Source of the DNA: Sinonovacula constricta | Taxonomy: Eukaryota > Mollusca > Bivalvia > Cardiida > Solecurtidae | Length of the DNA stretch: 64,000 nucleotides | NCBI GenBank assembly: GCA_007844125.1 | Contig: CM017562.1 | Coordinates: 63,905,138-63,969,137 of the forward strand | Direction of reading: 5' to 3' | In this document: in pieces, positions 35,264 through 55,864 of the stretch | How the letters are laid out: every line of letters begins with the position of its first letter | Numbering within the stretch: the stretch's first letter is position 1 | Made by a program: the position numbers and the translations under genes | The notes under the pieces: generated by a model | The model's input: the letters and a program-made list of their open reading frames with translations, nothing else | Told to the model about the DNA's origin: nothing | Database searches by the model: none

Positions 35264-35697
35264 GTACGTCTGGGTTTTGGTCCTTTGATTACCAACTGTG
35301 CAAACTATGACAATACTGGGTCATACATACATTGAACTATTGGTGTATGAATTGCCATTAGACATGTTGACACTTCATTTCAAGAACAATCTAACCACCT
35401 CCTTTGAGAGTTTTCTTGTATCTTTTATTTTTTACTCATTCTCTTTATGTGCTTATTTGAATTCATCTTTTACGCCCTGTCGTACAAGGTATATTCCAGG
35501 ATATTCCAAGTGCATGTTGGTGAGCACACAACATTATTTGCATATACGTCTTTTCAACAGCCTAATGCAATTAGACTTAGATTTCATTACCACACTTTAA
35601 AATTACACATGAAACAACCGCATTGTTTAAACATTTGTCACCGTGTAGGTCACATTAATATTCAACCGTACAATGAAATTGTAACATGAGCGTTTGG
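35264..35697. other. host intergenic, no gene seen
   Basis: Short overlapping open frames without domains between the minisatellite and a SINE. No other structure recognised. Confidence 0.4.
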
Positions 35698-35900: not shown

Positions 35901-36488
35901 AATGTGTCGGTGCGAGATAACAAACAACCACGGCTGCATATAAATAAAATCAGCGACGTTTGTATAACTGCCGTTCATTCTCAATCGAGGGAATGGCAAT
36001 CACTACTCGCAATCGGGCAAACAGCGAAGTCCAAACTCACCAAAATAAGGCGTAAGGTAGGTTATCAATGGTCTTGTTGTTGTTTTTCACATAGAATCAA
36101 ACATCTCTGCAAACAGACGATGTTTTATATTTCAGACCCTTCACTAGAATTGTTTCCTTGTATTTCAGTATCAAAATAAGACTTCGATGAAAATTTTAAA
36201 CTAAAATGCATAGATATGCTTTAAAAGAAAAAAAGAGAAGAAAAACCTCATTTAAAGAGACATTAGCTTTATAGCAAGACAATGTTCACATGGACATTCA
36301 TGTTTGCACTTAATTCAATAAAGTTTCAAGTATTGTCATATTAGACACTATGGATTCATTTTCTATGAATTAATTAAGTGCGCAATTATATCATGTGACA
36401 CGGCAAATGACTAAAATCCACAGTAACGAATTGCGTCGCACATAGAGTAGGTGCAGTAGCGGTAAATAACTTCTTGGTGACGGTGAAG

Positions 36489-37826
36489 ATGGAAACTCTG
36501 AATAATGTTTCAAGTGAAATGGACATTTTGGAAGATATCGCGGCGAAGAAGATCAATGAGTTTGCGCCAGTAATAGCGTATGTTGCTTTTGTTGTAATAT
36601 GTGGATTTCTTGGTAACATCGTGACGGTGGCTTATTATGGATTCAAGATCCAACGTAACAACACCACCGTATTCATTTGTGCCCTCGCCCTCGTTGACGC
36701 CATAACGTGTGTAGTGACGTCAGATGAGATCATTGAGCTGTGTTATGCCGTCACGTTCACAAGCAGAATTGGGTGTCGGTTTATGTACTTTCTAAACCAC
36801 ACTTGTGTCTCCGCATCTATATTGATTCTGTTCTTCATCGGGGTCGATCGTTTTCGAAAAGTATGTTTTCCTTTCTCGTGGCAGTTTTACATTACAACAA
36901 CAAAACGGTGTATTTTTGGTATCATCATCTTCGCAATCTCTTTATCAGCAAGAGATTTTGTGATTCTTGACATTGTAAGAGTCCCGATCCAGAACGGAAC
37001 TGTACGCGCCTTTTACTGCACACACACGAATGACGCAAACCTGAAGCCTGTCGTGAAAGCATTCCAGATGGTCGACGCCACTATCGTCGTCTGCGTGATT
37101 ATAATTCTCGTCATCATGTACAGCCTGATGGTTCGACAGATATTCGTTAAACACAATGCAGTCACGAAAGCAAGTCAGAAACTGGAAGGCGAGTCCACTG
37201 TAAGCAGTCAGGGAATGACAGGAAATACGAACCTTGCCCTCGAGCACGCCTGTCGCATGGAGTCATCGAGCGGTGGACAGTGTGTGACAGACATAGAGGT
37301 GTCATTGTGTCCACCGGCCACTGACTCCACCTGCCACTCTCTCCATCGGCCACTGTCTCTACCGGCCACAGACTGTACTAGCGACTTTGTCCAAAACAAA
37401 GACCCACCTAGTGAACAGAACGAAACCAGCTTTGTTGACAGTGGAATTGTCTATAGCGGTAACCAACAACAGATGGATATAACAGCTAGTAACAAGTCCG
37501 TTATTCGGAATCATCCACGTCCCCTGCCCACAAAGAACACCCAGAATAATGTGACAGTGTCAAGTAGAATCGAGCGGCAAATAACACTGATGATGGCAGC
37601 TATAAGTTCTGGGTTTATTCTCAGTTTTGTCCCTTATTTTGTGGTGAACCTGGCAGTGAAGCTGACGTCTGACACGAGTGAGAGTGAACTCAGTGTGGGC
37701 ATCCAGGTAGCGCTCAGGTCCTACCTCCTGAACAGCGCCATCAACCCATTCATAATCTGTCTCTTCAACTCAGGCTATCGCCGCTTTGTTGTTCAAAATA
37801 TCAACAAGTATTGTCGGCGCCGTTGA
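36489..37826 (+). CDS. orphan rhodopsin-like (class A) GPCR, single exon, 445 aa
   Basis: Intact seven-transmembrane receptor. TM1 carries the GN motif in 'GFLGNIVT' (39-46), TM2 'ALALVDA', TM3 starts after Cys96 and ends with 'DRFRK' (120-124, a DRY variant). Cys177 in the second extracellular loop can bond Cys96. TM6 has 'FILSFVPYFVV' and TM7 'NSAINPFIICLF' (NPxxY variant). There are N-glycosylation sites near the N-terminus and a long polar third intracellular loop of about 140 residues. I choose ATG 36489; upstream in-frame codons lack an ATG. The ligand is unknown. Only clear intact host gene in the window. Confidence 0.93.
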   Translation: METLNNVSSEMDILEDIAAKKINEFAPVIAYVAFVVICGFLGNIVTVAYYGFKIQRNNTTVFICALALVDAITCVVTSDEIIELCYAVTFTSRIGCRFMYFLNHTCVSASILILFFIGVDRFRKVCFPFSWQFYITTTKRCIFGIIIFAISLSARDFVILDIVRVPIQNGTVRAFYCTHTNDANLKPVVKAFQMVDATIVVCVIIILVIMYSLMVRQIFVKHNAVTKASQKLEGESTVSSQGMTGNTNLALEHACRMESSSGGQCVTDIEVSLCPPATDSTCHSLHRPLSLPATDCTSDFVQNKDPPSEQNETSFVDSGIVYSGNQQQMDITASNKSVIRNHPRPLPTKNTQNNVTVSSRIERQITLMMAAISSGFILSFVPYFVVNLAVKLTSDTSESELSVGIQVALRSYLLNSAINPFIICLFNSGYRRFVVQNINKYCRRR

Positions 37827-38956
37827 ATGTTGCATATCACCTTGCACGGTTCTGTTTTTGTAACAAAGAACATGTCCGGATGAACAATTTCGTACAAATA
37901 CCACACATTTATATTTAGGTAATTATGCTATTAATGAGATAGTGACAATTTTCATATATCTAACGCTTGGAGTTTTTAACTGGTGATGCGTTGTTATGTC
38001 ATGTAGGCTCATTTTCTTTGTTAAACAAATGTTTATTTCGTTGTCTCTTCGGTTTGTGTTTACATCTTCATGAATTTGCGAAACAATTTTCAGAACATAT
38101 CACACAAGCATTTAATTTATGAAACAATTCTTTAATAACAATGTTTTGTTGCATTAAGTTTGTATATGGGTATATTTTATTGGTGAGAGGTTTGTTTAAA
38201 ACGACATGAAACATTATAGGAAATAAATTAACGTTCACCACAAAGATGCTTGCCTAGTGGCCATGAACCAAAAAATTGTTTACCGTTAATAATTTACAAA
38301 ATAGTATACATTGTTTGTATCTTAGAGCATCGAAAAGTTAAATATAGTAGTTCTTGTCTGAAATTGTCATATTAAATTTCCTACACGACAGTTTGTATTT
38401 TGTTGTTTTTTGTTTTGCTAATAATTATTATACATTTTATTTATTTTTGCGAAATAGCTAAAACCGCCACGCATGTTTCGATTCAACTATTAAAATTCAT
38501 CAACAAAATGTAAACACTGAGATTTGAACCAGTGACAGCGTGCCTTAAGGGCTTAGTTACCAGGCGACGATGACGCTCAATATCTGTTGTAGTATATTGT
38601 TCAATTTGCATAGCTAGTATTTAAGTACATTTAAAGGCATCACTGAATGCGTTAAAACTATAGCATATGACTTATAAAATAGAGCGGATCTAAAATCAAC
38701 AATACCCTCCCAACCCCACCCCCAAAACAAAAACAACAACAAACCCAAACATCGCCCGCCCCCCCCCCCCCCCAAAAAAAAAACAAAACAACAACAACAA
38801 ACAAACAACAACAACTCAACAACAACAAACAAACACAACAACAACAACAACAACCACAAAACACGCACAAAAACAACAACAAAAAACAAACAAAAAACAA
38901 ACAAAAACACAACAAAAAAACAACAACAAACATTTCAAGTAATAAATTAGTTTACT
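37827..38956. other. host intergenic with CAA-rich low-complexity tract
   Basis: 38698-38935 is low complexity: A/C-rich with many CAA units and a C homopolymer of about 17 at 38757-38773. Open frames read through it on the minus strand are composition artefacts. A weak tRNA-like patch (about 38521-38575, minus strand, GGTTCAAATC as B box) may be a SINE remnant. 38951-38956 (TTTACT) is the left flank of Polinton-B. Confidence 0.5.
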
Positions 38957-39165
38957 ACTACAAAGGGGTCACTTTGGGGCTAAAACAGGAAATGACTTAA
39001 GTGCTTCTTAAGTGGGTATTGACGTCATCAGCGTTAGGCGATGTCACGCTGGTATGAGTCATACTTAAGTGGGTCACTCCTTCTTGAAGTGGTTATTGAC
39101 GTCACGCGATCACCTAAGTACCAACGCCACATTAAAATGACGGTTATTTTAAATCGAACCAATGA
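38957..39165 (+). repeat. Polinton-B left terminal inverted repeat
   Basis: Matches the complement of 55651-55858. It contains TGACGTCA (about 39019), TGACGTCAC (about 39099) and ATGAGTCAT (about 39056), which equal CRE and AP-1 consensus palindromes, plus repeated CTTAAGTG blocks. Confidence 0.93.
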
Positions 39166-40459
39166 GACGTCACTTCAGAGGACCGACGCTACTCGGTAAC
39201 GACGAATACGTTTTTAAAACGATTGGCCGAATGTCAAAAACTTCCCGTTCAGCGTTTAAATTCATTGGCGATAGCGCGTCTAGCGTACGTTAAATGGTCC
39301 GTTAACCTCAAGTACCACTTAAGGTCTTTATATAAGAGACGCAAAGAGTCGTCTCGAGTCATACGTTTTAAATCGCGCACGCTGACGTTATTATATTATC
39401 AGACCTTATATAAGATTATATTTAGAAGATATCATCGAACGAGTAAGTAATTTTTATCATATTTGTATTTAAATATTTAATAAGACGACACACTAATAAA
39501 TATACATTCATACTATACTACACACAATCATTATAAGTGGGGGCACACACAAAACCGGATACTAGTAAAGCGAGTTAATGATGTCCTATTGTTACACAGT
39601 GTACTTAAAGCTCTTAGTGATACACTCATTCAGTGAATATCGACGGTCAACTGGTTATTTTATTATACATGTATTTCCTGGTCAGGGCATTATATTGAAA
39701 TATATTCATCTTACGTTACATATAAAGCAGCTTTAATTATCACATTTTATTGTATGTACTTGTATTTTCTGATTAAGAGAGTATATATCGAGAAATATAT
39801 TTGTCATGTGTTACATTTTCGATCAGCGATTTAACAGATTCTAATCAATTATGAACATTTTGGCTGATAAAACAATACAGAGAGCGTGTATGTACATTCA
39901 GTAATAGTGTATTGAACAACACCAGCCACAAAGTTAGACAGCAGTTTTTAGATGAAAATTTTAAAAAAAAAGTTTACTTTAGTATTAGTAATTTCTATTT
40001 GCACTAATCACGTTTGAACGGAAGTACAATGTGCCATTATGTTTTTTCATGCTGTTTATTAACCTTTAAATAATAAAAGGAAAAAAATAGAATACACATT
40101 TTATTGTTTTAGTTTACAGTATAAAGAAACAGAATGGGAATATAAAACATTATTGTAGAGTTAAACACTGTCATACTACCATTATTCAGTAAGAAAACCC
40201 TGCCTGAACTTTTTTTAAAATAAAAATGAGCTAATTATGACATTTATCGTATAATTTTCCATTGTTTCTATTATTTTATTTTAAATAACCATAAACTTGA
40301 CTTATCCAGTAATATAATCCTTATCCATACAGTAGAGTTTTATATTAAAACAAAATTCATTTTCATATTACACTTTTAACAAATTAAAATCCATTAAACC
40401 CTATAATTATGGTAAAGTAATCCAAATGAGTCACACATTAAAGTTCATTTTCCATTCGT
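39166..40459. other. Polinton-B left arm, no confirmed gene
   Basis: A TATA-like TTTATATAAGAGAC lies at 39328-39341. A 75-codon Arg/Lys/Leu-rich frame (39223-39450) follows the TIR but has no recognised domain and starts upstream of the TATA-like box, so I do not call it. The remainder is AT-rich. Confidence 0.4.
39331..39338 (+). promoter_or_regulatory. TATA-like box (TATAAGAG) in left arm
   Basis: TATATAAGAG next to the left TIR. It shares TATAAGAG with sites before late genes of the same element (49413-49420 and others). The gene it would serve is not clear. Confidence 0.35.
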
Positions 40460-41116
40460 TCATTTTTTGTTTGTTTTCGTCGGTACCTGGATAAGATTTT
40501 TCAGTTTAGTGTACTGAGTCTTCAGCAGAGCCAATGAGTAATCAAGGCTCTCGATTGTTTCTCTTAAGGCCTCTATTTTAATTTTCAACTCTTCATCCTT
40601 CCATTGTATTAAACTCATCTGAAACGAAAGCAAACATTGTTGTTTTTTTCACAAAAATATTAATAATTAAACAAGAAAAATACATATCAAATTTTTCGAA
40701 TAATTTTACAAGGATAGTATTTCAAAATATATGCGCTTAAAATATATAGAATGAATTAATATTTTTACAAACAAGCATGCTACCTACCTCCATATATGAA
40801 TATGCCGATGTTAGCGAATAAGATTCGTTACTCAGAGGTGTGCTCGTAACCATTGGTTCAAAAAGCTTCCTCTTTACCTGAAAAAAACACACACACACAT
40901 AAAAAACACAAAAAATATTATATATTATAAGTACTTATTAGTGAGACATATATTCTCTAACTATATGTATTCCAGTATCCTTAAATTGAAAACATGTAAA
41001 CGAGTAAAGGTAAGGAATAATAAACTTACATCATTATCTGTTATCCTTAACGGGGTTTCCTTTATCTCCGTACTATCAGCAATGGTAATTCTCTCACCAT
41101 CGAAGCTTCTTATCTG

Positions 41117-41160
<44 letters not shown>

Positions 41161-41434
41161 CATATATTACTACTCTTGGTGTTTCATTCTGTAAGTATAA
41201 TAAGTACTATGTAAACATTGCCATTTATCAGATTTTCTAAAGCATACTTATCCTTAATATAAATCGTAATTCATTTGTAAAATAAACGGATATTATTTAA
41301 CAATTAATTCCGTCGCCTTTATAGTACATAACTCCAAACAACTAATTTATAATTAAAACAGAAACATAATAAATCACACACGCACACATATACAAAAAAC
41401 ACACACAAAAAATATATATTACTTGAGAATCCAT
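40460..41434 (-). CDS. four-exon small coiled-coil protein, about 114 aa
   Basis: Predicted exons 41434-41423 (only 'MDSQ', start within CCATGG), 41113-41030, 40877-40788 and 40618-40460, all phase 0 with GT-AG boundaries, ending in TGA. The last exon ('MSLIQWKDEELKIKIEALRE' onward) is a charged heptad-like helix. No family recognised. It is the only minus-strand gene in the left half of Polinton-B. The 12-nt first exon is the weakest part; an AT microsatellite lies in the first intron. Confidence 0.45.
41120..41153. repeat. (TA)n microsatellite
   Basis: About 17 TA units within an intron of the small minus-strand gene. Confidence 0.95.
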
Positions 41435-41599
41435 GGCTGTAAACACTCTGTGTAACATTAAATGTGATATAAATTAGTGAGAGATTAATAAATCGCTGGT
41501 CAGTTTGAGGACTTCCTGAGTCCAAGTCAATAGCCATATTTCCGGGCATTTTCCGATTTGACCCGTAATAATCTTATCCTATTCATATAAATCAATCAC

Positions 41600-41759
<160 letters not shown>

Positions 41760-41828
41760 GAGTTGTAATGAAAGGGACATAATCTACTTTTCACCTATTT
41801 CTTACCGAGTTGCTTTTCTTTTACTATA

Positions 41829-42382
41829 CACTCAACCACCTTTCTAATTGGCCACTTTTATTTTTTCTGATTCCTCGACATCTACAAAACCAATTTCGTT
41901 TAAATTTTTCAGCCTTTACTTCCGATGTATTTTAATATAGAAATCCGAACAAATTAGCTACTTTTCTGTCACGTTGTGATGTGCAGTTATTTCTTTGTTA
42001 ATTACGCCATTTCCGGTACGACGTCATAATTTAAAATTCGCAAACTCTTGAAAATTGGTTAATTTTATTTCTATAAAGAATGTCATTGCGTAAAAACATT
42101 TTACATTGCGGGAGTCCACGTATTTAATTGTATTTCACTTATTTAGCCATTTCGTTTAAATGGACATTGTTATAAGAATAATGGTATTTTTGTATTATTT
42201 ATATAATATAATTTTTGTCAAAGAAACAACACTATTGTAAATTAAAAATTATTTAATTCTCACGTATACCAACAAACTCATATTAAGTCTTTGATATCCG
42301 ACTCTTCATTGTTCTATCAATTTAATAATATGAAAACTATTTCACTTTATTTAAAGTGGCCAATTAGAAAAGTGGCTCAGTG
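41829..42382. mobile_element. 554-bp MITE (Tc1/mariner-type ends)
   Basis: Imperfect terminal inverted repeats of about 33 bp: left CACTCAACCACCTTTCTAAT followed by TGGCCACTTT; right is the complement with a few changes (ends CAGTG). TA flanks both ends (41827-41828 and 42383-42384), the target duplication of Tc1/mariner elements. The interior is AT-rich and non-coding. It ends about 55 bp before the PolB start codon and may affect its promoter. Confidence 0.8.
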
Positions 42383-42437
42383 TAAAATAAAATCACTGAT
42401 GTCGTTTATTACAAACTGTATATATTTTATATAAGAT

Positions 42438-45400
42438 ATGGCCCTCGAAGACATCGTTGCCGCCATAATAGCCGAAGGTGTCACGGCCCAAGAGTTTCTA
42501 GATTTTTTCACGGACCTCGGCATGGGTGAACATCCGTACATCGTTGACATTACGCAACAACTCACCTTGGACGAAAAAATTCGAAACCCAGGGTCCCCGG
42601 TCCCGGAGTGTACGATGGAAGACTCGGACCAATTGCTGACCCTCAAATCTCCCGCCCCCGAACAAGATTTCGAGCCATGGTCCCCTAGAATGGTGGCTGA
42701 GGTCATTGTCCAAGAAGAGTTGGTCTCTTTGTCTCACGCCTGTGTTCAAGACGGTGAATTTAGGTACACACGTTTTTCAACATTACGTAATATTAACCAT
42801 ACCATTTGTACATCTCCTATAAAGGTACGATTAAGAAAACATCTTCTGATATAAGATTACAAACTCATATTTTATAAGTTGTTTACTACGATATCACTGA
42901 TCCGAGTGCTGCTTTTTTATTTTAAACATCTCATGTTTTATTTACAGGCGCGGCAAACGTTTTACTTTTCCCGATGTCGGACCGATTTTCCGGATATCAA
43001 TCCTACCGGACACACCTAGAGACCCACTCCGCTACTTCGCCGGTAACAGGACCGTCTAGTTCGCGTGACGACTCAATGGAGACAGATCACGGTCTACGGT
43101 AACTGACCACCCAATGCAAGGGGTCTGCGCTGAAAGTTCGACACAGGAAGGCAGCGCCGATGAACCGCCATACCAGATCGAACTCTCAGGGATGCGACGC
43201 TTCTCTCGGACTGTGGCCGTAGAAAAAACGTACAAAGTACGTTTTAATGACCAGTGGCAGGGGCAACGACTCGGCGATCTGCGGCAACAACTACATCGAC
43301 TCTTCGAGCAACTGTTGGTTAGGGCCAGAGAGGGTATCAATGACAACGACCTATTGAGAGTAGTTATACGTCACGACGCCCTCAATAATGCCATGGTTAT
43401 CCCTTTGATGAAGGAAGGGGACCTAAACGTGGAAAAGATCTTGTCCAAGATCGAAAACGTCCTGCAAAGCGAGGAAACTTTGGCCGTGGACGATTCTTTT
43501 CAAGGTTAGTATAAAATAAACTACAACAACAATAGCAATAATAATAATAATAATAATAAATGAAACGTACAAAAATGATATATAGACTTTAAAGAATCGT
43601 ACATTTTTGTTACAGTGATGGTCGGATCTCTGCACGTACCTCAGGGTGGATTCAGATGGCGAATCACTAAACTGACAGGCCCGGATAACTCAATCCATAA
43701 AAAAACCTCCATGGTTCAAATCGTCAACGACGATCAGTTCTGCATGGCGAGGGCCATCGGCGTAGGATTCAGCAAACATTGCGTGGTCCCGGACGAGGAA
43801 TGGCGACACATTAAAAAAAGCCAACAACTACAAAACTTATCCAGAAATTGTAGTGAAAGAGGGGAAAATCAAGGCTTCAAAAATATCAAAAAGAAGAACC
43901 GCCAGGAGCAGAAACAGTTGGCCGTCCTCCTCTGCAGAAAAGCCGGAGTCCCGACAGACCGTCCCGGGTCCCTCAACGATCTGCCCATCTTCGAGAAAGC
44001 TTTGCAGGTGCGGATCGCCGTGGTGGCGGCGTCTTTGGGCAACAAATTTATCAGGGTACCTGATAACGACCACGAAAATTGGCCTCTGATTTATTTGTAT
44101 TTGGTGGATCACGAAGGGGTCAGCCATTTCCACGCCATTGTCAACATTGCGGGCTTTTTCAGCGCCATTTATTTCTGCGAGAGGTGTTTTTAGCAATATA
44201 ACGAAAACACCAAGCACCGGTGCGAGACGACCTGCTTAACGTGCAAGAGTCAGAACTGCCCGGAAACTGACGTCACCATGTCTTGTAGGTCATGTCATAT
44301 GGTCTGTAGGTCCCTTGAATGTTTCGAACGTCACCTCGTGAAAAGAACCAGGAAGAACGGCAACAAAGGGGACGTGACTCTCTCGCAATGCGACGAGTTC
44401 TGGCGGTGCACAGCCTGCAAGAAAGTCATCAATAGGTTCAAGCGGCCGGTGGAACTGCATGATTGCGGGGAATGGATGTGCAAATGTTGCAAGTCCTGGG
44501 TCACTGGGGAGCATTAGTGATACCTGTTTCCTGAAGAGCCCAAGAAGCCCGTCAAAAAGTTCATCTTCTTTGATTTCGAGGCTACCCAAGACACTCTCGC
44601 CCAATGCACTGAAGGTTATGTCCCCGACGAGAATAACAAATGTCAAGGATGCTTCAAATCGTGGTGCGGACAGCCCAGACACGTGCCGAATTTTGTGGTA
44701 GCCCAAACGGTCTGCGAGGATTGCAAGGACATCAATTTGACTCCCTACTCTAAATGCGCCGTTTGCGGGAGCAGATGTACGAAATGCGACGCCTGGGATA
44801 AAGAAAGCGAAACTTCTGTACACCCCCTTGCCCTAACACGTGCGGTTGCCGGGAAGTCATATTCCAAGGAGATAATACGCTTGAGCACTTCGGGAACTGG
44901 TCGTTTAGTGCACAACATAAAGACGTCACGGTCCTGGCTCACAACATGAAGGTATTGCATTTGATTACTAATACAGGTATAAACAATAGTATCTATTTAA
45001 CATATTATCGGAAATGACTTTTTGTAAATGGATTATCAAATAATAATTGAACATTGTAATGTAATAGTATTTCTGTTTCTATTTTTGTAGGGCTACGATG
45101 GCGTGTTTCTCCTAGAATACCTGGTGAACAATAGCATGAGACCCTCAAAGGTGATTTATAACGGATCGAAAATCATGTACATGGAGGTGTCCAAGGGTCT
45201 ACACATCCGGGTATTGGATTCCCTGAACTTCCTGCCCATGAAATTGGCGACACTACCCAGCGTAAAGAAATGGAGTCCTACTGCCGTTCTGGCGTAGAAA
45301 TCTTGAGAAGGGCGTGTCTGCAATTCAGACAGTTGATGTTGGATGCCACCGAGGTAGACCCCTTCCAGTACGTCACCATCGCCAGCGTCTGTATGGGGAT

Positions 45401-48010
45401 CTATAAGACGAGGTAAGCGCAAATACCTTTTTACAAGCTTACTTAGTACAAAACTAAACATAAAATTTAGATCATCATTTTCGTCGTTTAAATTAAACTC
45501 GTACAAATAATATCATGTATTATCGTTTTTTCTAGGTTCCTTGAAGCCAAGTACAACGCCACCCTGACATATCCAGTAGGCGTCCTCGGTCCTTACAAGA
45601 GTATCGTTAAAAAAAACCTAGTGGCTGGCTGGTATTTGACAAACGGACCGATGATTGGAAACCGCTAAACCAGGGTGCCGAAGTATCGAGCAAGAAGCCG
45701 ATTCGATCCAACATAGCCCAGATAACCTCCGAAGGCTACGTCCAAAGGGATAACTTCAGCAAGGCCTCCATCCAGTGGCTAGAGTAAACTATGGAACTCG
45801 CTCGGAGGAGAGGAGAAACCTTACGCATCGAGCACGCTTTAAACGGTGGCGAAGAATACATCTTTGGGACCCGTTACAAGGTGGATGGTCGAACCGACAA
45901 GACGGCCTATGACTTCCATGGTAGGTTTTAAAAGTATAAATATCTAATCTATCTATAACTGTTTTGGTTATGTACGGACAGCAGAATATTAACGTTATCT
46001 ACTCTTTTTTTCTATGTTGTTTATGGCACGGTTGTCCCGAATGTTTCCCAGACAGAACCGTCAAGAATCCCAAATCGGGTCAGAGCATGAATCAGTTGTA
46101 CGCTCTGACCCAAATCAAGAGAAAAGCGCTGACCCAGGACCTACGCTACGACTACGTATGCATATGGGAGCACGACTGGGTCAAGATGGTCCGGGAGGAT
46201 CCGGATGTCAGCGACTTTGTGGCGGGACTCGATATCCAGGATAGGCTAGACCCCCGTGAATCCTTCTTCTGAGGTCGTACCAACGCCGCCAAACTCCGCT
46301 ACACGATCAAGGAGGGGCGGGGGGGGGGGGGAGAAAGTCAAATACGTCGACTTCAAGAGGTAATTATACCGATTGATTATTATTTCATTTTTGTCCATGC
46401 ATATTACATTGGTGCTAATATTTAACCTATTAAATTATTTTCTATTTACAGTTTGTATCCCTATGTCAACAAATACAGCCGGTATCCCGTGAGCCATCCC
46501 GAGCTGATCACGAGCAACTTTGGCGATATAAAGTCTTACTTCGGGATTGCCAAAGTTAACATTCTGGCACCCCGAGGTCTGTACCATCCTGTCTTGCCAT
46601 ACCGGTCCAACGGTAAACTCAAGTTCCCTCTGTGTAGGACCTGCGCCGATACGGAAAATAGGACAGCCTGCAGCCACAAGGATGACCAGAGAGCTTTTGT
46701 GGGTACTTGGTGCACCCCAGAAATAGAGAAAGCCCTTGAGAAAGGATACAAGCTCATAAAAATCTACGAGGTACCACTGGAACGAGTCCACCCAGTACGA
46801 TCGGACCACACAGAAAGGAGGATTGTTTGCCAGTTATGTAAACACCTTCCTGAAGTTCAAACAGGAAGCGAGCGGCTGGCCCGAGTGGTGTAGGACCGCA
46901 GAAGACAAAGAAATCTACGTCCGTGAATATTTTCGGAACGAGGACGTCCAGCTTGACCTTAACAACATTAAGAATAATCCTGGTCTGAGAGCTCTAGCTA
47001 AACTTTGTCTGAACAGGTAAATATATAAATAAACGTCCATGTATTTATACACACGCTTCAAATTAATTTTGAATAACTCTCTCTCGTTCAATTCCAAGTT
47101 ACTCCTTTTATTTTGTTAATTACTTTAGCTTCTGGGGGAAATTCGGGCAACGGCTCAATCAAGGGGTCTGCGAGTTTGTGAACGCCTCAGAGTTGGACAA
47201 ATTCTACAAAGTGCTGACAGACCGTACCAAGAAGGTAAGGGATTTCCATATCATCAACGAAGAGAATCTTCATCTCGAGACGAGCACCAGACTGGTTTTG
47301 TGCCGGAAGACATAAAAAACCAACATCTTCCTGGCAACCTTCACTACGTGCTGGGCTCGACTCAAGTTGTACGGCGTCCTATACTACGATACCTCGGTGA
47401 CTCGGTGATCTACGTGAGCAGACCCCTACAGTTCGACCCACCATTGGGAGGTTATTTAGGTAATTATCGTATTAGCAAATTCTTCTAATTGCTTTCTTTA
47501 TACTTTCAATTTTCAATATAATAAATATTCGTATTTGTCGATCAATGCAAATGTTGAAAACTCGTTCTGATATTTTTTTTGCAGGAGAACTTACCGACGA
47601 GCTGTACCACGGAGACTACATCGTGGATTTCGTGAGCGGCGGACCCCCAAAAAAACGCATACACCACAGCGAAGGGCAAACAGACGTGCAAGATTCGAGG
47701 ATTCAGCCTGAACTATACGAACGCTCAAATCCTTAATTTTGACAGCGTCCGAGACACGGTGGGTCACGTCAGCCCTTTGAAACCATCGACCTACAGCAAA
47801 GTACGACAACAGAAAAGGAAGCAACAGGTTGACGAGGTCGAGCAACCATCCCCCAAAGTCATTGTCGTCACCAATCCTTCCAAAAATTCAAGGGACAAAT
47901 TCAGCAATCTTATATACAATAAACTAGAAAACAAACGGTACCGAGTAGTTTATGACAAGAAGGTGATTCTGTACAATTACGACACCCTTCCCTACGAGTA
48001 TTTAAGTTAA
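42438..48010 (+). pseudogene. Polinton DNA polymerase B, nine exons, broken
   Basis: Predicted exons: 42438-42763, 42948-43504, 43616-44951, 45091-45412, 45536-45920, about 46013-46359, 46452-47016, 47129-47459, 47585-48010. It has the N-terminal region typical of Polinton PolB, exonuclease 'FIFFDFEATQD', 'HNMK' followed by 'GYDGVFLLEY', Cys/His 'WHGCPECF', palm motif A (Asp at the end of exon 6 and 'LYPYVNKY' in exon 7) and motif B 'FWGKFGQR'. Lesions include TAG at 44191-44193 and 44515-44517, TAA near 45787, TGA near 46270, several frame changes, and a short local duplication in palm motif C near 47390. The exon 6 acceptor lacks an AG. It would replicate element DNA by protein priming. Confidence 0.9.
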
Positions 48011-48017
48011 TAAGAGG
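48008..48017 (+). promoter_or_regulatory. TAATAAGAGG junction motif (PolB end)
   Basis: TAATAAGAGG overlaps the PolB stop as two TAA codons plus GAGG, 40 bp before the next ATG (48057). Identical sequence at 48406 and 51145. Confidence 0.5.
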
Positions 48018-48056
48018 TGGTGGTGTGTAAACCAATACATATAACAGCGGATACAA

Positions 48057-48408
48057 ATGGAACATTCCAGAGTAATTAGACATTTGAACTTTTTGGCTTC
48101 CCCGAGGAAACCCAGAGGTCGTCGACGGTTGCTTCGAAACATGACGGTAGACCAGACGGAGGCCTTATGCGATGTGACGAAGCGGATTGTCGATGGAACC
48201 ATCGTTTTATTGAGAAGCGACGTGAGAATCTTCGAAGAGAAAAAGTTTGTTGTTACGATCCTTGGCTTCGAATAGGGTCTGTAGCCGCAGAAAAAAAGAA
48301 CTGTTAAAAACGCAGTCAACACTGACACCCGTTCTTTTGAGGGAAGTATACGTGGTACAAACGATCGCCGGCGAACTGAGAAGGGTCAGAGAATCCGCGG
48401 AACAATAA
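48057..48408 (+). pseudogene. small basic late protein, frameshifted
   Basis: Opens with Arg-rich 'SPRKPRGRRRLLRNMTVDQT' and a helical middle, similar in pattern to the proteins at 49452 and at 2780 in Polinton-A. The first frame ends near 48275; a related continuation ('AEKKELLKTQSTLTPVLLRE') lies in another frame to the TAA at 48406. Probably a paralogue of the 49452 gene. Function unknown. Confidence 0.5.
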
Positions 48409-48415
48409 TAAGAGG
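48406..48415 (+). promoter_or_regulatory. TAATAAGAGG junction motif (before ATPase)
   Basis: Second identical copy, again overlapping a stop codon, 24 bp before the ATPase ATG at 48440. Confidence 0.5.
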
Positions 48416-48439
48416 GACGTAGTTAAAAGATAACACATC

Positions 48440-49363
48440 ATGATCATTATGAATCTTTGCCCGGAATGTCGACGTCCTTTTTCCAGAAGAGACGTCATGT
48501 TACGTCATCTGAGAAATCTACACAACGATATACCTCCTCTGTCTTCAAAAAGCACGCCGTCGCCACCGCCAAAAGTGCCTTTTGTCCCGCCGCCGCCGCC
48601 AGAGGAATATATACAGAACACGCCGCCGCCGCCGCCGCCGCTAGAAGTGACGTATACGCCCCCGCCGCAGGAAGTGGCGTACATGACGTCGCCGCCGCAA
48701 GAATATATACAGAACACGCCGCCGCCGCCGCCGCCGCCGCAGGAAGTGACGTATACGCCGCCGCTGAGGGATATCAGTCTCTTACCGTTTGAACCTTGTT
48801 CCAGTATTATGGTGGCAGGACCGACGGGTTCGGGAAAGCCGAGATGGGCGTTTACCTTTCTTCAACAGTTGAATGTTTTGTGTATGACGCCTCCTCGCAA
48901 GATTTTGTACTGTTACGGCGTCTACCAAGATCTGTTTGACGAGATGGAAAGTAGCCTTCCCAACTTCACGTTACATAGGGGATTACCGACCTCGGAGGAA
49001 ATCGAATCATTGGCTGGAGGCGTGCACGACCTCATTATTTTGGACGACCTTATGCACGCCGCACTAGGTAGTACGACGACGGAACTTTTGTTTACCCAGG
49101 GATGCTACCACAGAAAGCTCAGTGTGGTGTTTATTAACCAAAATATTTACGGTCAAGGAAAATCGGCCAGAACCATCGCCCTCAACTGCTGGTATATGGT
49201 TCTCTTTAAGAATATTCGCGGTACGTCCCAGATACAGACCCTGGGACGACAGCTTTTTCCGCGAAAATCCAGATCCCTGACTGACGCGTTCGAAGACGCC
49301 ACGAAAAGACCTTTCGGTTACTTGATGATAGATCTGTCTTCCCGTGGATTGGACGAGTATTGA
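48440..49363 (+). CDS. packaging ATPase with N-terminal C2H2 finger and proline linker, 307 aa
   Basis: Open frame. Residues about 5-28 form a C2H2 zinc finger ('LCPECRRPFSRRDVMLRHLR'). Residues about 33-110 are a proline-rich linker built from repeats of 'PPPPP', 'EVTYTPPP' and 'EYIQNTPPPP'. The FtsK/HerA-type ATPase follows, with Walker A 'GPTGSGKPR' near 127, Walker B 'LIILDDLM' near 198 and 'FINQNIYGQGK'. The residue after the Walker A Lys is Pro instead of Thr/Ser, which should weaken Mg-ATP binding. The finger and linker are absent from the Polinton-A ATPase. Role: loading DNA into the capsid. Confidence 0.92.
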   Translation: MIIMNLCPECRRPFSRRDVMLRHLRNLHNDIPPLSSKSTPSPPPKVPFVPPPPPEEYIQNTPPPPPPLEVTYTPPPQEVAYMTSPPQEYIQNTPPPPPPPQEVTYTPPLRDISLLPFEPCSSIMVAGPTGSGKPRWAFTFLQQLNVLCMTPPRKILYCYGVYQDLFDEMESSLPNFTLHRGLPTSEEIESLAGGVHDLIILDDLMHAALGSTTTELLFTQGCYHRKLSVVFINQNIYGQGKSARTIALNCWYMVLFKNIRGTSQIQTLGRQLFPRKSRSLTDAFEDATKRPFGYLMIDLSSRGLDEY

Positions 49364-49410
49364 CTTAGAACCAACGTTTTATTAGAAGATGACGCCATCG
49401 TTTACAAATG

Positions 49411-49420
49411 TTTATAAGAG
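49411..49420 (+). promoter_or_regulatory. TTTATAAGAG motif before small late gene
   Basis: Located 48 bp after the ATPase stop and 31 bp before the ATG at 49452. It shares ATAAGAG with the other junction motifs and has the spacing of a TATA box with a short leader. Confidence 0.45.
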
Positions 49421-49451
49421 TCATCGGTAACCAGCCGCAAACCAATCTATC

Positions 49452-49790
49452 ATGAGTCGTTTAATGAAAGACCAGTGGCCGTACTTTCAACTGTTTATTT
49501 CAAAGACCACCGGTTTCCAGAGACAACGTCTTCTAGAAACTATCACCAACGATCAACTGAAAGCTTTGGTTCAGATAGTGATCAATTTTCTCAAGCGCGT
49601 ATTGACGGCGAAGCCGGCCGCGCTATCTACATTGGAGAAACACAAATATCTGTTTAGACGAATTGCCGACGAGAGAGTTGCTTATAAAAAAAAAAGAACT
49701 TGCTTCGAAAACGTCAGAAAACTATAACCAAATTGCTCGAAGCCGTAGCTCCGATCCTAAAAGCATATCTACGATTAGTGCGGTGCAAAG
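49452..49790 (+). pseudogene. small basic late protein, frameshifted
   Basis: N-terminus 'GFQRQRLLETITNDQLKALV' is the counterpart of the Polinton-A protein at 2780 and directly follows the ATPase as there. The frame changes in an A-run at about 49686-49695, after which helical, Lys/Arg-rich sequence continues in another frame to about 49790. Function unknown. Confidence 0.55.
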
Positions 49791-50013
49791 GTCCGTGTTA
49801 CTTCCGTTTGACAAATACCAACGTCTGATCGGACATAAGCCCTTGACGAAGAATCAGGATAAACAGCCAACCCTCTACACGGAAAACGTCAACAAGCACA
49901 GACAAGATCCTGTCCAGAAGATAAGACCACCGGGTATACCGGCTGCGAGGAAGGAACGGAGAAAGAAGCGACAGATCAAAACTTCCAACCTGAAACCGTG
50001 GATAGACGTGTAA
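49663..50013 (+). CDS. late protein with VLLPFDKYQRLI motif
   Basis: Counterpart of the 3088 gene in Polinton-A: 'VLLPFDKYQRLI' near 49796 and a Lys/Arg-rich C-terminus ending just before the integrase ATG. The first third of the open frame overlaps the previous gene and is probably not real coding sequence, so the true start is unclear. Function unknown. Confidence 0.5.
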   Translation: MPTRELLIKKKELASKTSENYNQIARSRSSDPKSISTISAVQRSVLLPFDKYQRLIGHKPLTKNQDKQPTLYTENVNKHRQDPVQKIRPPGIPAARKERRKKRQIKTSNLKPWIDV

Positions 50014-50015
50014 AG

Positions 50016-51147
50016 ATGGCCGAATGGAAAAGATACCTAGAGAAGATATATTTTGATCCGAGCAATCCCGGAAGTTTCGCAGGGCCTGAAAAATTGTATA
50101 ACCTGGTGAAATCCGAAGGAAAATTTCGCGTGGGAAAATACAAAATCGCTCAATGGCTGAGGGACCAGGAAGCTTATTCCTTAACCAAAGCGACGAGACG
50201 AAAATTTCAGCGATCCAGAGTTGTCGTAGAAGGACTGGACAGCCAGTGGGATATGGACCTGATGGATATGAAGGATTTGGTCAGTGATAATGAAGGTTAT
50301 CAATACGTCTTAATCGCCATCGACGTGTTCTCTAGATTCGCATGGTGCGCATCTGCGAAAAGTAAAGCCGCTAAAGACGTCGTCACACCCATGAAAGACT
50401 TGCTGCAAGGGCCGAGGATACCGAAAGTCATCAGAACGGATAAAGGGAGAGAAATTAGCAACAAGGATGTTTCTACATTCCTGAACAGCAAAGGTATACA
50501 TCATTTTTGTGCCCAAAATACCGAAACCAAGGCTAACTACGTGGAAAGACTCATCAAAACGATTAAACATAGATTGTATCGTTGCTTTATCAAGAATAGG
50601 ACCCGAAAGTACATTGATGTCCTATCGGAAATCATCAACAGTTACAACCATACCAAACATTCCAGTCTCGGACAAACTCCAGCATCCATCGACGAGAAGA
50701 ATGAACACGAAAGCGTATACGAACAGTACCTCATTCGTCAAAAACGAGACGCGCGAAAGAAAAAGAAGACATCTAAGAAAACCAAACCAAGACCCTACGC
50801 TCTCAAGCTAGGTCAAGTGGTTCGAGTGACGCACATTAGAAACGTGTTTGACCGAGAATATTCTCAAAAAATGGGCGGGAGAGGTGTTTAAGGTGAAATG
50901 ACGATTCAGAAGAGAGGGACTTCCGGTTTACATTCTAGAAGACTGGTCGGGCGAAATCATAAAAGGTACTTTTTACGAAGCGGAACTTCAGTCAGTAAAC
51001 GTCGATGAAAACACTGAATATTTCGTAGAGAAAGTGTTGAACAAAAGGAAGAAAAATAAGATGTCGGAAGTACTAGTCAGATGGCTGCACTGGCCTAAAA
51101 AGTACGATTCGTGGATACCGGAAGAAGACTTGAAATTGTATCATTAA
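50016..51147 (+). pseudogene. chromodomain integrase, frameshifted late
   Basis: The core is complete: 'WDMDLMDM' (Asp), 'RTDKGREI' (Asp) and 'NYVERLIKT' (Glu) with about 35 residues between the last two, a retroviral-type D,D(35)E catalytic domain. Frame lost near 50875-50890; the C-terminal chromodomain ('VLVRWLHWPKKYDSWIPEED') is in another frame ending at TAA 51145-51147. It would integrate the element with 6-bp duplications. The stop overlaps a TAATAAGAGG motif. Confidence 0.92.
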
Positions 51148-51154
51148 TAAGAGG
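51145..51154 (+). promoter_or_regulatory. TAATAAGAGG junction motif (integrase end)
   Basis: Third identical copy, overlapping the integrase stop and 28 bp before the ATG at 51183. Confidence 0.5.
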
Positions 51155-51182
51155 CGTGAGACAACAATCGAAACAAAACAAC

Positions 51183-51448
51183 ATGGAAAGAAATAATAGC
51201 CAAGAGTGGCGGTTGTTCGGTAGCCGGGTACCTAAAGCGGAAATCGTGTACATTTGCCAGATAATCATCGTCTTCGTGATCATCGTGACCCTATCGTAAA
51301 CCTGTCGCTAAAGAACGGGAACCCGGAGATGTGGATCAGCTTACTTTGCAGCACCATCGGGTACGCCCTACCTTCACCGACCTTGAACGATGGAAAAACA
51401 TTACCTATTTCTCAGCAGCGAGCAGTCGAAGGATCAGTTTCCATCTAA
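51183..51448 (+). pseudogene. small two-helix membrane protein, frameshifted
   Basis: First segment 'VPKAEIVYICQIIIVFVIIV' is a transmembrane helix. A second hydrophobic segment ('MWISLLCSTIGYALPSP') lies downstream in another frame, with a frame change between about 51260 and 51300. Polintons and adintoviruses often carry a small protein with this layout near the capsid genes. An envelope, entry or membrane role has been suspected for such proteins but is unproven. The tail overlaps the minor capsid start. Confidence 0.6.
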
Positions 51449-51794
51449 TCATCCGGGAGACTTCACGGTGGAGTTACCATACACCTACGATCTAGATGGA
51501 CGTTGGATATGCGCTCTAAAGGAAATATAGATACCTTTACGCGACGACATCGTGTTCGTTTGTGCGGACATGTGCGTTGAATCCTACGCTGAGAATACCA
51601 TGGTACCAGTTCTGAGGGCCTTGCAGAAAACGTCGGGTAAAAACGTACTGACCTATTTTCTATACGAGAATCCGATGCACGTGACAGTGAAAGAGAAGAC
51701 ATTGAGCCGAGTCAAAATATTTATAAGAGACAGCGAACTAAAACCTATTTCATCCGACAAAACCGTGAGGTGTTCCATTCAGTTGACAAAATAG
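51390..51794 (+). pseudogene. penton-like minor capsid protein with in-frame stop
   Basis: N-terminus 'HYLFLSSEQSKDQFPSNHPG' and 'YDLDGRWICALKEI' match the Polinton minor capsid (single jelly-roll) pattern. A TAG at 51528-51530 (codon 47) interrupts an otherwise single frame to 51794. Located between the membrane protein and the core protein. Confidence 0.8.
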
Positions 51795-51826
51795 AAGTAG
51801 AGAAATAGCAAAGACATTTTCAACGC

Positions 51827-52069
51827 ATGGCAGAAGGAAAGATTAGCCCCAACCACAGAGGACACTGGATCGTGGACGAAATACAAGTAGTAGGCCAAAC
51901 GGAAAAACCGAAACTCAAAATGGTCACACCCGTGGCTCAGGACATTGAACTCGCCAAATCCAAACTGAGAGAAGATAAAATGAACCAAAAAGTTTATAAG
52001 AGGAAGCCCGCCACCATACATAGACCTGCCAAAAGAGCGAGATACGCGACTGACGTATTTACTCGATAA
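51827..52069 (+). CDS. basic core-like protein, 80 aa
   Basis: Open frame ending 3 bp before the major capsid ATG. It has 'VTPVAQDIELAKSKLREDK' and a basic C-terminus ('RKPATIHRPAKRARYATD'), comparable in place and composition to the 5051 gene in Polinton-A but much shorter and less basic. Probably a DNA-associated virion protein; inferred from position. Confidence 0.6.
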   Translation: MAEGKISPNHRGHWIVDEIQVVGQTEKPKLKMVTPVAQDIELAKSKLREDKMNQKVYKRKPATIHRPAKRARYATDVFTR

Positions 52070-52072
52070 AAC

Positions 52073-53328
52073 ATGGCTTCTTCGAAGCACGACGACGATT
52101 TGGCTTTATTCGATTTACCAGAAGTGGAGACGGCGACGCAGAAAAGAGAATGGCTTACCGTGAGACCCATCAATCAACTCAAGCCAGGTGCCGCCATAGA
52201 ATTTAACGTTCCCGGCACATCTCTGAATTACATAGATCTCAAGAACCTGATGCTTTCGATAAAGCTTAAAATCGTCAAGGCGGATGGTTCCAACCTCACC
52301 CAGACAGACAAAGTGGGTCTAACGAACAACCCACTACACAGCATTTTCTCCCAAGTGGACATCAACTTGCAACAACATCCGACCACCGAAATTGGCGCGA
52401 ACTATGCCTACAAAGCATATCTGGACACGCTGTTGGAATGCGCGAATCAGCACGAGTTGGACTGTCAGCTGTTTATAAAAGACGATGGTGGTCTTGATAT
52501 GGACGACCCTGATCCTACAGGGAGAAACAACGGATTGTATTTGAGAGCCATAAACAATGTTTTTAGTAAGGAAATAGACCTCACGGGACGTCTCCACGTG
52601 GATATTTGTCAGCAAGATCGATTCATTCTGAACGGGGTTCCCGTGTCCATCAAACTGTGGCAAAATTCGGACAGATTCAGACTTTTGGCGAAGGACGGAT
52701 TAGAAAACTACAGGATTCTCATCACGAAATCTTCTTTAAAAGTGGCTTTAGTCAAACTGAATCAGATGTCATGCTAGCTCAAGCTGACGTCATCAAGACC
52801 ACTGACGCTCTGTATCCTTACAGTCGTTCCGTGATCAAGACCTACGCTGTTCCGCAAGGTCAATACTCGTTTACCGCCAGCGATATGTACTTGGGAGAAG
52901 TCCCCCAGCAACTAATAGTGGGTGTAGTGGAATCTGCCGCGGCTAACGGATCTTACGTCAAGAATCCTTTCAACTTTCAAAACTTCAACTGCACGTACGC
53001 CGGATTTTTTATGGACGGTCAGTCGGCACCGTCGGAACCGTTGCAACTCAATTATAAGAGCGACCAGTTTGTGGAAGCGTTCGAGCGATTGTATTGGGAT
53101 CAACTTCAGAGAGCCGTGACCATTACCAGACGCTATTTCAAAGATGGCTATTGTCTGTACGCGTTTAGACCTAACGGCGACGTCAAGGACAGACCGGAAG
53201 AGCGAGCCCACACTCGTCTAGAACTCAAGTTTGCTGAACCGCTTCCAGTCACGTGTACGGTGATCGTGTACACCAGGTTCCCTGCGCTCATGCGCATCAA
53301 CGAAAGTAGACACGTTACCTTGGAATGA
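52073..53328 (+). pseudogene. major capsid protein (hexon-like), one frameshift
   Basis: Double jelly-roll major capsid protein. Landmarks: 'FNVPGTSLNYIDLKNLMLSI', 'NNPLHSIFSQVDINL', 'LYLRAINN', 'TTDALYPYSRSVIKTYAVPQ', 'ANGSYVKNPFNFQNF'. The frame changes once, between about 52690 and 52770; the C-terminal half runs to TGA 53326-53328, overlapping the protease ATG. Over 400 residues in total, the usual family size. Confidence 0.92.
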
Positions 53329-53744
53329 TGAACGGAAACCAAATTACAGCGGCTTTAAATAGCGATCCAGTTACCCGAAAAACGTTCGGAGGCGTCCTCG
53401 CGGCGAACGAATTGAGGACGGTGATAGGACGACGACCAAAACTGTTTGTGGTGAATACGGACGTCAGAGGCATGTCGGGAAAACATTGGACGGCATTTTA
53501 TTTTCCAAAAACCGGACCTTCAGAATTCTTTGACTCTTTGGGGCATAGACCTGAACATTATCGGCGAACGTTTAAGTCAAACTTGATCCAACACGGTCCT
53601 CATTATATATACAATAGAATTCGTGTTCAACCTTACAATACCGAGACGTGCGGACAGTACTGTATTCAGTTCTCTAAACTCCGATGCCGCGGATGGTCTA
53701 TGAAACGAATTGTTAGATATTTAAGGTGTCACCCTTTTAATTGA
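53325..53744 (+). CDS. adenovirus-like cysteine protease, intact, 139 aa
   Basis: Open frame whose ATG overlaps the capsid stop. All catalytic positions of the C5/Ulp1 fold are present: His54 ('GKHWTAFYF'), Asp70 ('EFFDSLG'), Gln102 ('VQPYNTETC') and Cys109 ('TCGQYC'). It is expected to process capsid proteins during maturation. Shorter than adenain (about 200 aa) but normal for Polintons. Confidence 0.92.
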   Translation: MMNGNQITAALNSDPVTRKTFGGVLAANELRTVIGRRPKLFVVNTDVRGMSGKHWTAFYFPKTGPSEFFDSLGHRPEHYRRTFKSNLIQHGPHYIYNRIRVQPYNTETCGQYCIQFSKLRCRGWSMKRIVRYLRCHPFN

Positions 53745-54543
53745 CAAACTTGTTTTATTATGTATGTTATAAATTTGACGTATTGTTTGTATTTTGGAAA
53801 GACGTTTCATGTATATTATATTTGTATATTATATTTGTATTGACTTTGAATTTATATTTGTGCCTTTTACTTTATTGAGTGTGTGTGTGTGTGTGTTAAA
53901 GTTTAATTGTGTTAAATAATCGCTAAACTTTGCTTTCGATGAAACTAAAAAGTTATATATTTAGGATCCAACTCTTTTTGTTACTGTGTGTATAAAAACG
54001 TACTGTTACAAGTGTTTCGTTTCATGTATATTGTATTTGAACTTACTTTGATTTGATTGTAAAAAAATCATTCCCTTGTATTAAGGTGTTAATAGTAAAT
54101 TCCGGTTCTTCATAGTATATGTGTATTAACTTTAAATTTAATGCGCATGTACAAGATGTTATAGTTGTATAATGTATTTTTTGTATTGTATGTTTTGTAA
54201 ACTTATTAACTCGTATCATTGTGTAAATGGTGTATGATTATATATTCTCTCTAATAAAAATCATCGAGACTGAAACGTATTGTTTTGTTTTTATTTATTA
54301 AAAAATACATTAACACTCATGTCTCGGATTAACGAATCGGCTTAAGTAATTCTAAAAAATACATTAAAATTCTAAAAAATACATTAAATATAATGTTTAA
54401 CGAGACTTGAGGTGATTTCGTGAATACGGATCATGAAATTCAATAAAAATAATAACAAAAACTGAGTATAATTATATTTATCTTATTTATTTACCCCGCT
54501 CAATACAGTACCTTGGGGATTAGGGCGGTCCCCCTTCGGCACT
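53745..54543. other. convergent 3' region in Polinton-B
   Basis: Between the protease and the minus-strand TBP-like frame. It contains a (GT)n run (about 53879-53896), a polyadenylation-like AATAAA (about 54252) and short repeats of 'TCTAAAAAATACATTAA' near 54350-54388. No coding evidence. Confidence 0.5.
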
Positions 54544-55053
54544 TTATAACAATGGTAATTCTATCAAAATGGGTATACACGTATCATGCAAGTGTTTTAA
54601 ACGCTTAATACCGGTCATTAGTACGGATCCGGTATGAAAACACGTAAAATGAATCGAGTTTTTGGTAAACATGGCGGCCGGAAACAACTCTGGTTCGTAA
54701 TGTCCGTCGTAATAACGAACCACTTTATATAAATCCAAAGGTCCGTCCACTTTGAATGAAGCCGAAATCGTAATCACTTTGACGTCTGATAAGATGACCT
54801 TCTATCCTAGAATTTGTATGCGTCGGGCGTAGCGTCTCAGTCTTTTCTTGGCCTCCGCAACGTAGCCGATTCTACCATTTACTTGTATTTATCCGGTAGA
54901 AAACACCGTACAATGTCCACCGATTTTGGCATGTTCCCATATGGCGCCGGAATATTTGGCTGGGTCGAAAATAATGTTTGTCGTTTTATTAACAAAACGT
55001 TTTAAGTCAATGGCGCAATTAAGGCGTCCGGAGCACACTACGTTGTTGATCAT
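54544..55053 (-). pseudogene. TATA-binding-protein-like gene with two in-frame stops, 169 codons
   Basis: One reading frame from ATG 55053, 1 nt after the PC4-like stop, to 54544, interrupted only by TAA (54889-54891, codon 55) and TAG (54802-54804, codon 84). It has two TBP-like repeats. The first contains 'NNVVCSGRLNCAIDLKRF', 'FDPAKYSGAIW' and 'RLRRYARRIQ'. The second contains 'PLDLYKVVRYYDGHYEPELF', 'PAAMF' and 'SVLMTGI', comparable to the 'YEPELFPG' region and the glycine-ended strands of cellular TBP. The length is near the about 180-aa TBP core. TBP binds promoter TATA elements and nucleates transcription initiation. Sequence is far from a metazoan TBP, so a processed host copy is unlikely. 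Confidence 0.75.
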
Positions 55054-55054
55054 T

Positions 55055-55543
55055 TTACCAGTTCATGTATTCGTTCGGATTACACTCGGAACACCTGAGA
55101 TAGCCTTGCTGATTAGCGTGGTCGCTTTGAAAGAGACACGGCACGACGCTGCTGAGTTCTGGTACGGCGGATCCCACCTCGGGAATGAATCGTTTAACTT
55201 CTTCGTACTCCAAGGGCCTCATACACAATCCTTTCTTGCAAGGTACCACTTCGTCCTGAGGCTTCCAATACTTTCGAAAGTCCACGCAAGGGTTGTCCGC
55301 CTTGACGGTACAATACACGTTACCGCCCAAGTGGGTTTGGTACAGTTTGCCCTCTTTCAACGCTCCATCTATGTACTTCAAACTGTCAACGAGACATTTT
55401 CAGCGCATTAACGTTAAGCTGATCCCTTTCTTGGTCGGTTTATCGTTGTCCCACTCTCTTAGGTCCACTCTCTTTTCACCGTTCCACTCGCTGACGGTGA
55501 CCTGTCTGCCGTTACCCAAGGCGAAACACGAACTGTTTTCCAT
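55055..55543 (-). pseudogene. tandem PC4-like transcription coactivator, in-frame stop
   Basis: One frame of 163 codons from ATG 55543, with a TGA at 55400-55402 (codon 48). The first module resembles the PC4/Sub1 ssDNA-binding fold ('GRQVTVSEWNGEKRVDLREW', 'DKPTKKGISLTL'). A second copy follows ('CVDFRKYWKPQDEVVPCKKG' then 'VKRFIPEVGSAVPEL'). The C-terminus has 'LRCSECNP', a partial zinc-ribbon-like element. PC4 proteins bind melted or single-stranded DNA and assist transcription or replication. It lies directly upstream of the TBP-like frame, as if co-transcribed. Confidence 0.75.
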
Positions 55544-55650
55544 AATGACGCGAATGTCTAACTGATACAGAGGCAGCCGCCGGTGCTCCTTCTTTTAATA
55601 CAACTATTAACGTGACCCCAATTTTTATTGGCTAGCAATTTCTACAACTT

Positions 55651-55858
55651 TCATTGGTTCGATTTAAAATAACCGTCATTTTAAAGTGGCGTTGGTACTT
55701 AGGTGATCGCGTGACGTCAATAACCACTTAAGGAAGGAGTGACCCTCTTAAGTATGACTCATACCCGCGTGACACGCCTAACGCTGATGACGTTAATACC
55801 CACTTAAGAACCACTTAAGTCATTTCCTGTTTTGGCCCCAAAGTGACCCTTTTGTAGT
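55651..55858 (-). repeat. Polinton-B right terminal inverted repeat
   Basis: Inverted copy of 38957-39165. TGACGTCA and ATGACTCAT palindromes are retained, while one of the TGACGTCA sites has mutated. Flanked by TTTAAT (55859-55864). Confidence 0.93.
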
Positions 55859-55864
55859 TTTAAT

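Follow-up and report, generated by a model that had tools for sequence, protein, structure and literature searches.

The window, that is, the whole 64,000-nucleotide stretch of Sinonovacula constricta DNA analysed here, contains a 16.9-kb element, Polinton-B, at 38957..55858, whose limits were taken from the alignment of its TIRs and from its flanks. The left TIR (38957..39165, plus strand) and the right TIR (55651..55858, minus strand) are identical at 199 of 209 positions (95%). The element is flanked by TTTACT (38951-38956) and TTTAAT (55859-55864), which agree in five of six bases and are probably a 6-bp target duplication with one mismatch.

On the plus strand lie the probable remains of a DNA polymerase B in several frames (43069..48007; DNA_pol_B_2 at 46453-46893 with an E value of 4.1e-5, below the cut-off, the other pieces being recognised by eye), a putative packaging ATPase (48440..49363, named by eye, with a weak AAA match only), an integrase with a chromodomain (49998..51144; rve 4.2e-13, Chromo 8.5e-9) that is broken near 50890, a putative major capsid gene split by a frameshift into two ORFs (52073..53328, named by eye, with no Pfam match), and a protease-type gene, PRO (53325..53744; Peptidase_C5 E 0.0099, below the cut-off). 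The names MCP, ATPase, PX, PY, penton and VI, as used for these elements, are presumptive, having been assigned from motifs typical of such genes. Convergent with PRO, on the minus strand, are a TBP-like gene (54544..55053) and, next to it, a tandem PC4 gene (55055..55543). Since breaks also occur in the frames of the polymerase, capsid and integrase, the stop codons found in the TBP-like gene fit a general decay, and the Polinton-B of the window is a decayed member of a TBP-bearing lineage.

Several other features of the window deserve a brief account. The TIRs of Polinton-B carry TGACGTCA sites of the CRE type at 39020, 39097 and 55712 together with repeated CTTAAGTG words, which suggests that host factors may act on the ends of the element. 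The stretch 39451-42380 is AT-rich (26.6% GC vs about 45% in the genes of the element), includes a TA microsatellite, and is probably a later insertion. Another pair of inverted repeats (112 nt, 93%) surrounds a Polinton-type gene set at 1098-32387 and also encloses a LINE-type ORF of 1071 aa with an RVT_1 domain (20249-23464, minus strand). A rhodopsin-type GPCR in a single open frame (36474-37826; 7tm_1, E 2.3e-24) sits between both Polintons, and at 33524-35335 there is a tandem repeat of the DNYTSNMPQIKPSID type in which both strands have long open frames.

The TBP gene and its PC4 neighbour

An earlier note on this DNA, made from the letters alone, had described a 169-codon minus-strand frame with two TBP-like repeats inside the TIRs of Polinton-B, and this description holds in every part. 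The frame of 169 codons plus a stop is enclosed by the aligned TIRs, the HYEPELFPAAMF that the note had placed in the second repeat is there, and the two stops it had reported fall at codon 55 (54889-54891) and codon 84 (54802-54804); the other five frames of the same stretch have 7-12 stops each. Introns in place of the stops were considered and rejected, as the frame is continuous, and equally long, in related copies. The reading hung on a match to the TBP profile, and the match is significant. When the pieces between the stops were searched separately, codons 1-54 matched PF00352 with an E value of 9e-9 and 35.5 bits (profile positions 4-58 of 85) and codons 85-169 with 3e-8 and 33.8 bits (2-74 of 85), against a curated cut-off of 22.9 bits; the Pfam search with the middle piece of 28 aa gave no hit. 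With both halves independently above the cut-off, and with intact relatives that align over the whole length, the frame is, by sequence, a TBP. Among solved TBP structures, the C-terminal piece is best matched by archaeal TBP (E 2.2e-8; yeast TBP 2e-4), and the matches of the N-terminal piece are weaker (best E 0.0017). The predicted structure of one piece alone, at a pLDDT of 50, was too poor for use.

The PC4 (p15) gene was overlooked in the earlier note. It ends one base before the start of the TBP gene on the same strand, and consists of domain 1 (55403-55543), a stop codon (55400-55402), domain 2 (55058-55399) and the gene end at 55055, so that the window copy is broken by one stop between its two PC4 domains. 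Domain 1 matches PF02229 with an E value of 3.6e-14 (52.4 bits vs a cut-off of 25), and domain 2 falls below that cut-off (E 2e-4 to 8e-4, 19.4-21 bits). The order is the reverse for PC4 matches in the PDB, with E values of 2.6e-4 for domain 2 and 0.015 for domain 1. The structure model of the PC4 piece was again too poor for use.

Copies, history and selection

Related Polinton copies with TBP were sought in the same genome (1.22 Gb) and proved to be many. The 47 TBP matches merge into 29 loci, which comprise the host TBP, with an exon read on C3, a TBPL1-like gene on C8, with an exon containing YEPELHP, and 27 others. Of these non-host loci, 22 were examined (30 loci fetched, less 5 second halves of genes already counted and 3 host loci, leave 22 distinct ones), and the counts of TBP genes and promoters given here include near-identical copies. 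PC4 adjoins TBP in 21 of the 22. In 13 the TBP frame is uninterrupted and 168-174 aa long, with 9 different proteins among them.

Two arrangements can be told apart. In the B-like one, to which the window belongs, PRO is convergent with TBP-PC4 (9 loci); in lineage 2, PC4, TBP and INT follow one another on the same strand (6 loci). Five B-like copies have 1-4 nt between PC4 and TBP; in two copies of lineage 2 the spacing is 351 and 380 nt. One locus, L032, has an open frame at 1180-1740 that starts like a lineage-2 PC4 and runs into TBP, a fusion read by eye that apparently arose by deletion. In 9 of the 22 loci, all of them B-like by arrangement or sequence, a TIR was located next to the pair. 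We also considered whether TBP-PC4 might be carried by a nested insertion of non-Polinton origin; this was rejected because PRO or INT is repeatedly the neighbour of the pair, as is a TIR in those nine distinct loci. Polinton-A, which served as a control within the window, had no TBP or PC4 match to the Polinton-B pieces. In IMG/VR no relatives were found for the C-terminal TBP piece of the window, its integrase or its PC4 piece, and none for yeast TBP either. A YEPE-x-FP DNA pattern retrieved 11 contigs there, 0 of them with a TBP frame, and integrase and capsid DNA patterns had 0 matches in IMG/VR, the integrase pattern being one that does match the window.

The relationships of these genes point to an old association. 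Six Polinton TBPs make up one side of the TBP tree (support 100/99, with a long-branch warning). Their identity to yeast, fly and animal TBP is 26-32% and to TBPL1 27-33%, which bears out the earlier note's judgement that the gene is too divergent for a recent host copy; between the two Polinton lineages the identity of TBP is 41-46%. In the midpoint-rooted integrase tree, 11 TBP-bearing rows stand on one side and 12 TBP-free rows on the other (100/100); the tree was built from 40 regions that yielded 25 integrase frames, or 23 rows after two identical rows were dropped. Among the capsid-type loci listed, TBP lies within 15 kb of 18 out of 125 (150 of 198 candidates were scored, and the 150 rows correspond to 125 loci). 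The TBP clade, the integrase split and this restricted occurrence together indicate that TBP marks one lineage, and they are consistent with a single old acquisition of TBP rather than a recent copy from the host.

TBP and PC4 are under purifying selection. The dN/dS of TBP (Nei-Gojobori) is 0.164 at a dS of 1.31 for L024 vs L015, 0.18-0.25 among the TBPs of lineage 2 and 0-0.10 for closely related B-like pairs; that of PC4 is 0.077 at a dS of 2.88 and 0.07-0.19 for close pairs, with the caveat that dS between lineages is saturated or nearly so. These values bear directly on the idea that the two are passengers, picked up from the host by chance and of no use to the element. The broken TBP of the window would suit such an origin, as would the 9 of 22 distinct loci that lack a full uninterrupted frame. 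Against it stand dN/dS values of 0.16 for TBP and 0.08 for PC4 at dS above 1, the pairing of PC4 with TBP in all but one of the loci, and the retention of the pair in two lineages whose TBPs have diverged so far; we regard the passenger idea as very improbable. Several intact copies under selection suggest instead that these Polintons help to switch on their own genes. On balance we favour the explanation that a Polinton lineage long ago acquired TBP and a tandem PC4 and keeps both as a viral transcription module.

Putative promoter motifs and a possible transcription switch

A candidate promoter signal is found in Polinton-B. The word ATAAGAG occurs there eight times on the plus strand and never on the minus strand (the mean for shuffled sequences is 1.3, and 0 of 500 reach 8), and the longer WTWATAAGAG seven times (mean 0.16). 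Six of the eight copies precede genes: at 48010..48016, 40 nt before a 72-aa ORF; at 48408..48414, 25 nt before the ATPase-type ATG; at 49414..49420, 31 nt before a 91-aa ORF (PX); at 51147..51153, 29 nt before a short ORF (PY); and, within the upstream frame in both cases, at 51723..51729, 97 nt before an 80-aa ORF (VI-like), and at 51996..52002, 70 nt before the capsid-type ATG. The other two lie in the left subterminal region (39332..39338) and within the capsid-type gene with no close start (53054..53060). Of the nine start regions of Polinton-A, one has ATAAGA and none has ATAAGAG.

It should be pointed out that ATAAGAG was first spotted by eye and tested afterwards, and that two starts were added to the "homology" list after the sighting. 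A word search of the window corrected for all words gave P values of 0.0005, 0.0155 and 0.0535 for 6-, 7- and 8-mers with the fixed list of starts, 0 of 2000, 0.0005 and 0.0025 with the list that includes the two later starts, and 0.054, 0.051, 0.558 and 0.066 for 6- to 9-mers in 180-nt windows. As these P values vary between 0.0005 and 0.56 with the list and the word length, the other copies weigh more in the case for the motif.

In 10 B-like regions of 5.3 kb, falling into two clusters, ATAAGAG occurs 59 times in sense and 0 times in antisense, mostly at matching offsets, vs 6 and 5 times in 23 regions without TBP. The motif precedes the same genes in two B-like sub-lineages, where 8-10 bases of the 10-mer are conserved in each of six pairs of sites, compared with agreement at 4-11 of the next 25 bases; the pairs were aligned on the motif itself, and the first pairing is uncertain. 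Lineage 2 has a different word, GTAAGAA, with 35 sense and 0 antisense copies in five regions, where it precedes integrase, penton-like, VI-like and capsid-type genes. In the 23 TBP-free regions it occurs 16 times in sense and 14 times in antisense, and 7 of the sense copies are in L059, a lineage-2 relative in which no TBP or PC4 was seen within 5.3 kb. Dense motifs are thus limited to the TBP-bearing lineages and L059. Two TBP carriers, L051 and L057, have only 1 and 0 copies of ATAAGAG, and sense-only 7-mers at 6-7 copies are found in TBP-free regions as well. The PC4-TBP unit itself has another kind of upstream region: in the 300 nt before nine PC4 genes, near copies among them, ATAAGAG and GTAAGAA are both absent from 9 of 9, a TATA-like sequence is present in all nine, and TGACGTCA in the five B-like ones.

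The protein may tell us something about how such motifs could be read. Residues were read from the alignment of the six Polinton TBPs, a piecewise alignment to yeast TBP having been discarded since the internal repeat misaligned it; the base-contact, inserting-aromatic and TFIIB-facing positions are those generally given for TBP. YEPELFP is kept in 6 of 6 proteins, and the four inserting aromatic positions are kept in all but for one Ser in L021. Two of the four Asn/Thr base contacts are changed in 6 of 6 rows (Thr to Asn in repeat 1, Asn to Thr in repeat 2). This pattern suggests that the Polinton TBP may still bend DNA and meet TFIIB while reading a changed sequence. A kept TFIIB-facing loop with changed base contacts would also be expected if TBP and PC4 were aimed at the host, as a decoy that reduces host transcription by sequestering TFIIB or blocking host promoters. 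We consider such a decoy quite unlikely, because the inserting aromatics are kept (with the one Ser excepted), as expected for a DNA binder, and because the viral genes have a repeated motif of their own.

Under the transcription module that we favour, the PC4-TBP unit would be made early by host factors, from a host-type promoter near the end of the element. The viral TBP, with a DNA-binding PC4, would then recruit TFIIB and Pol II of the host to those virion-gene promoters that carry the motif, and the result would be an early-to-late switch in an element where no gene for an RNA polymerase was recognised. That TBP reads ATAAGAG and GTAAGAA we infer; for lineage 2 it is a guess, because GTAAGAA is not TATA-like and a TAAG initiator is equally possible. 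Indeed, the motif might be read by a host factor or be a TAAG-like initiator, with TBP-PC4 serving replication, packaging or some other role. The TAAGA common to the two motifs agrees with this, as does the lack of TATA character in GTAAGAA, and PC4-type proteins are known to bind single-stranded DNA. Yet dense motifs occur only in the TBP-bearing lineages and their close relative L059, and we find this alternative doubtful. The fullest version of the module, in which an animal Polinton clade has its own Pol II initiation system, with early TBP and tandem PC4 reading lineage-specific TAAGA late promoters and TBP and promoter having co-evolved, is tentative, and we hold it to be possible rather than probable. 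If true, it would give an element that lacks an RNA polymerase a minimal means of switching from early to late transcription.

Comparison with known systems

Polinton-B resembles other Polinton/Maverick elements in its TIRs, its probable 6-bp target duplication, its rve integrase with a chromodomain, and the probable remains of polymerase B and of an adenovirus-type protease; it differs from them in carrying TBP and a tandem PC4. The earlier note had known of no description of TBP as Polinton cargo, and in the literature searched, a scope outside which the adintovirus paper lies, no report of either TBP or PC4 in this role was found. Nor did that literature yield a description of gene control in Polintons, for which a selected TBP-PC4 pair and lineage-specific motifs now offer direct predictions. 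Here a small virus-like element would bring general transcription factors in place of a polymerase, and its lineages may provide natural TBP-promoter pairs for the study of how TBP specificity changes.

Mirusviruses are likewise DNA viruses with a TBP gene, which is reported for 59% of their genomes (PMC10132985), and TBP has also been reported in mirus-like insertions of an alga. Mirusviruses differ in being large plankton viruses of the HK97 fold, and the likeness is one of description, not of sequence. Cellular TBP and TBPL1 share with the Polinton protein the two repeats, the YEPEL loop and the inserting aromatics, whereas the Polinton TBPs have changed base contacts and form a separate clade.

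The late promoters of baculoviruses have the sequence DTAAG, and the ATAAG or GTAAG core upstream of virion-type genes in Polintons is similar to it. The reader in baculoviruses, however, is a viral RNA polymerase, and none was recognised in Polinton-B. Herpesviruses have TBP-like late factors that bring host Pol II to late promoters. These are very divergent and work in a multi-protein complex, and they are likened to the Polinton TBP by description only; in joining a viral TBP-like protein to the host Pol II, they offer a precedent for the cascade proposed here.
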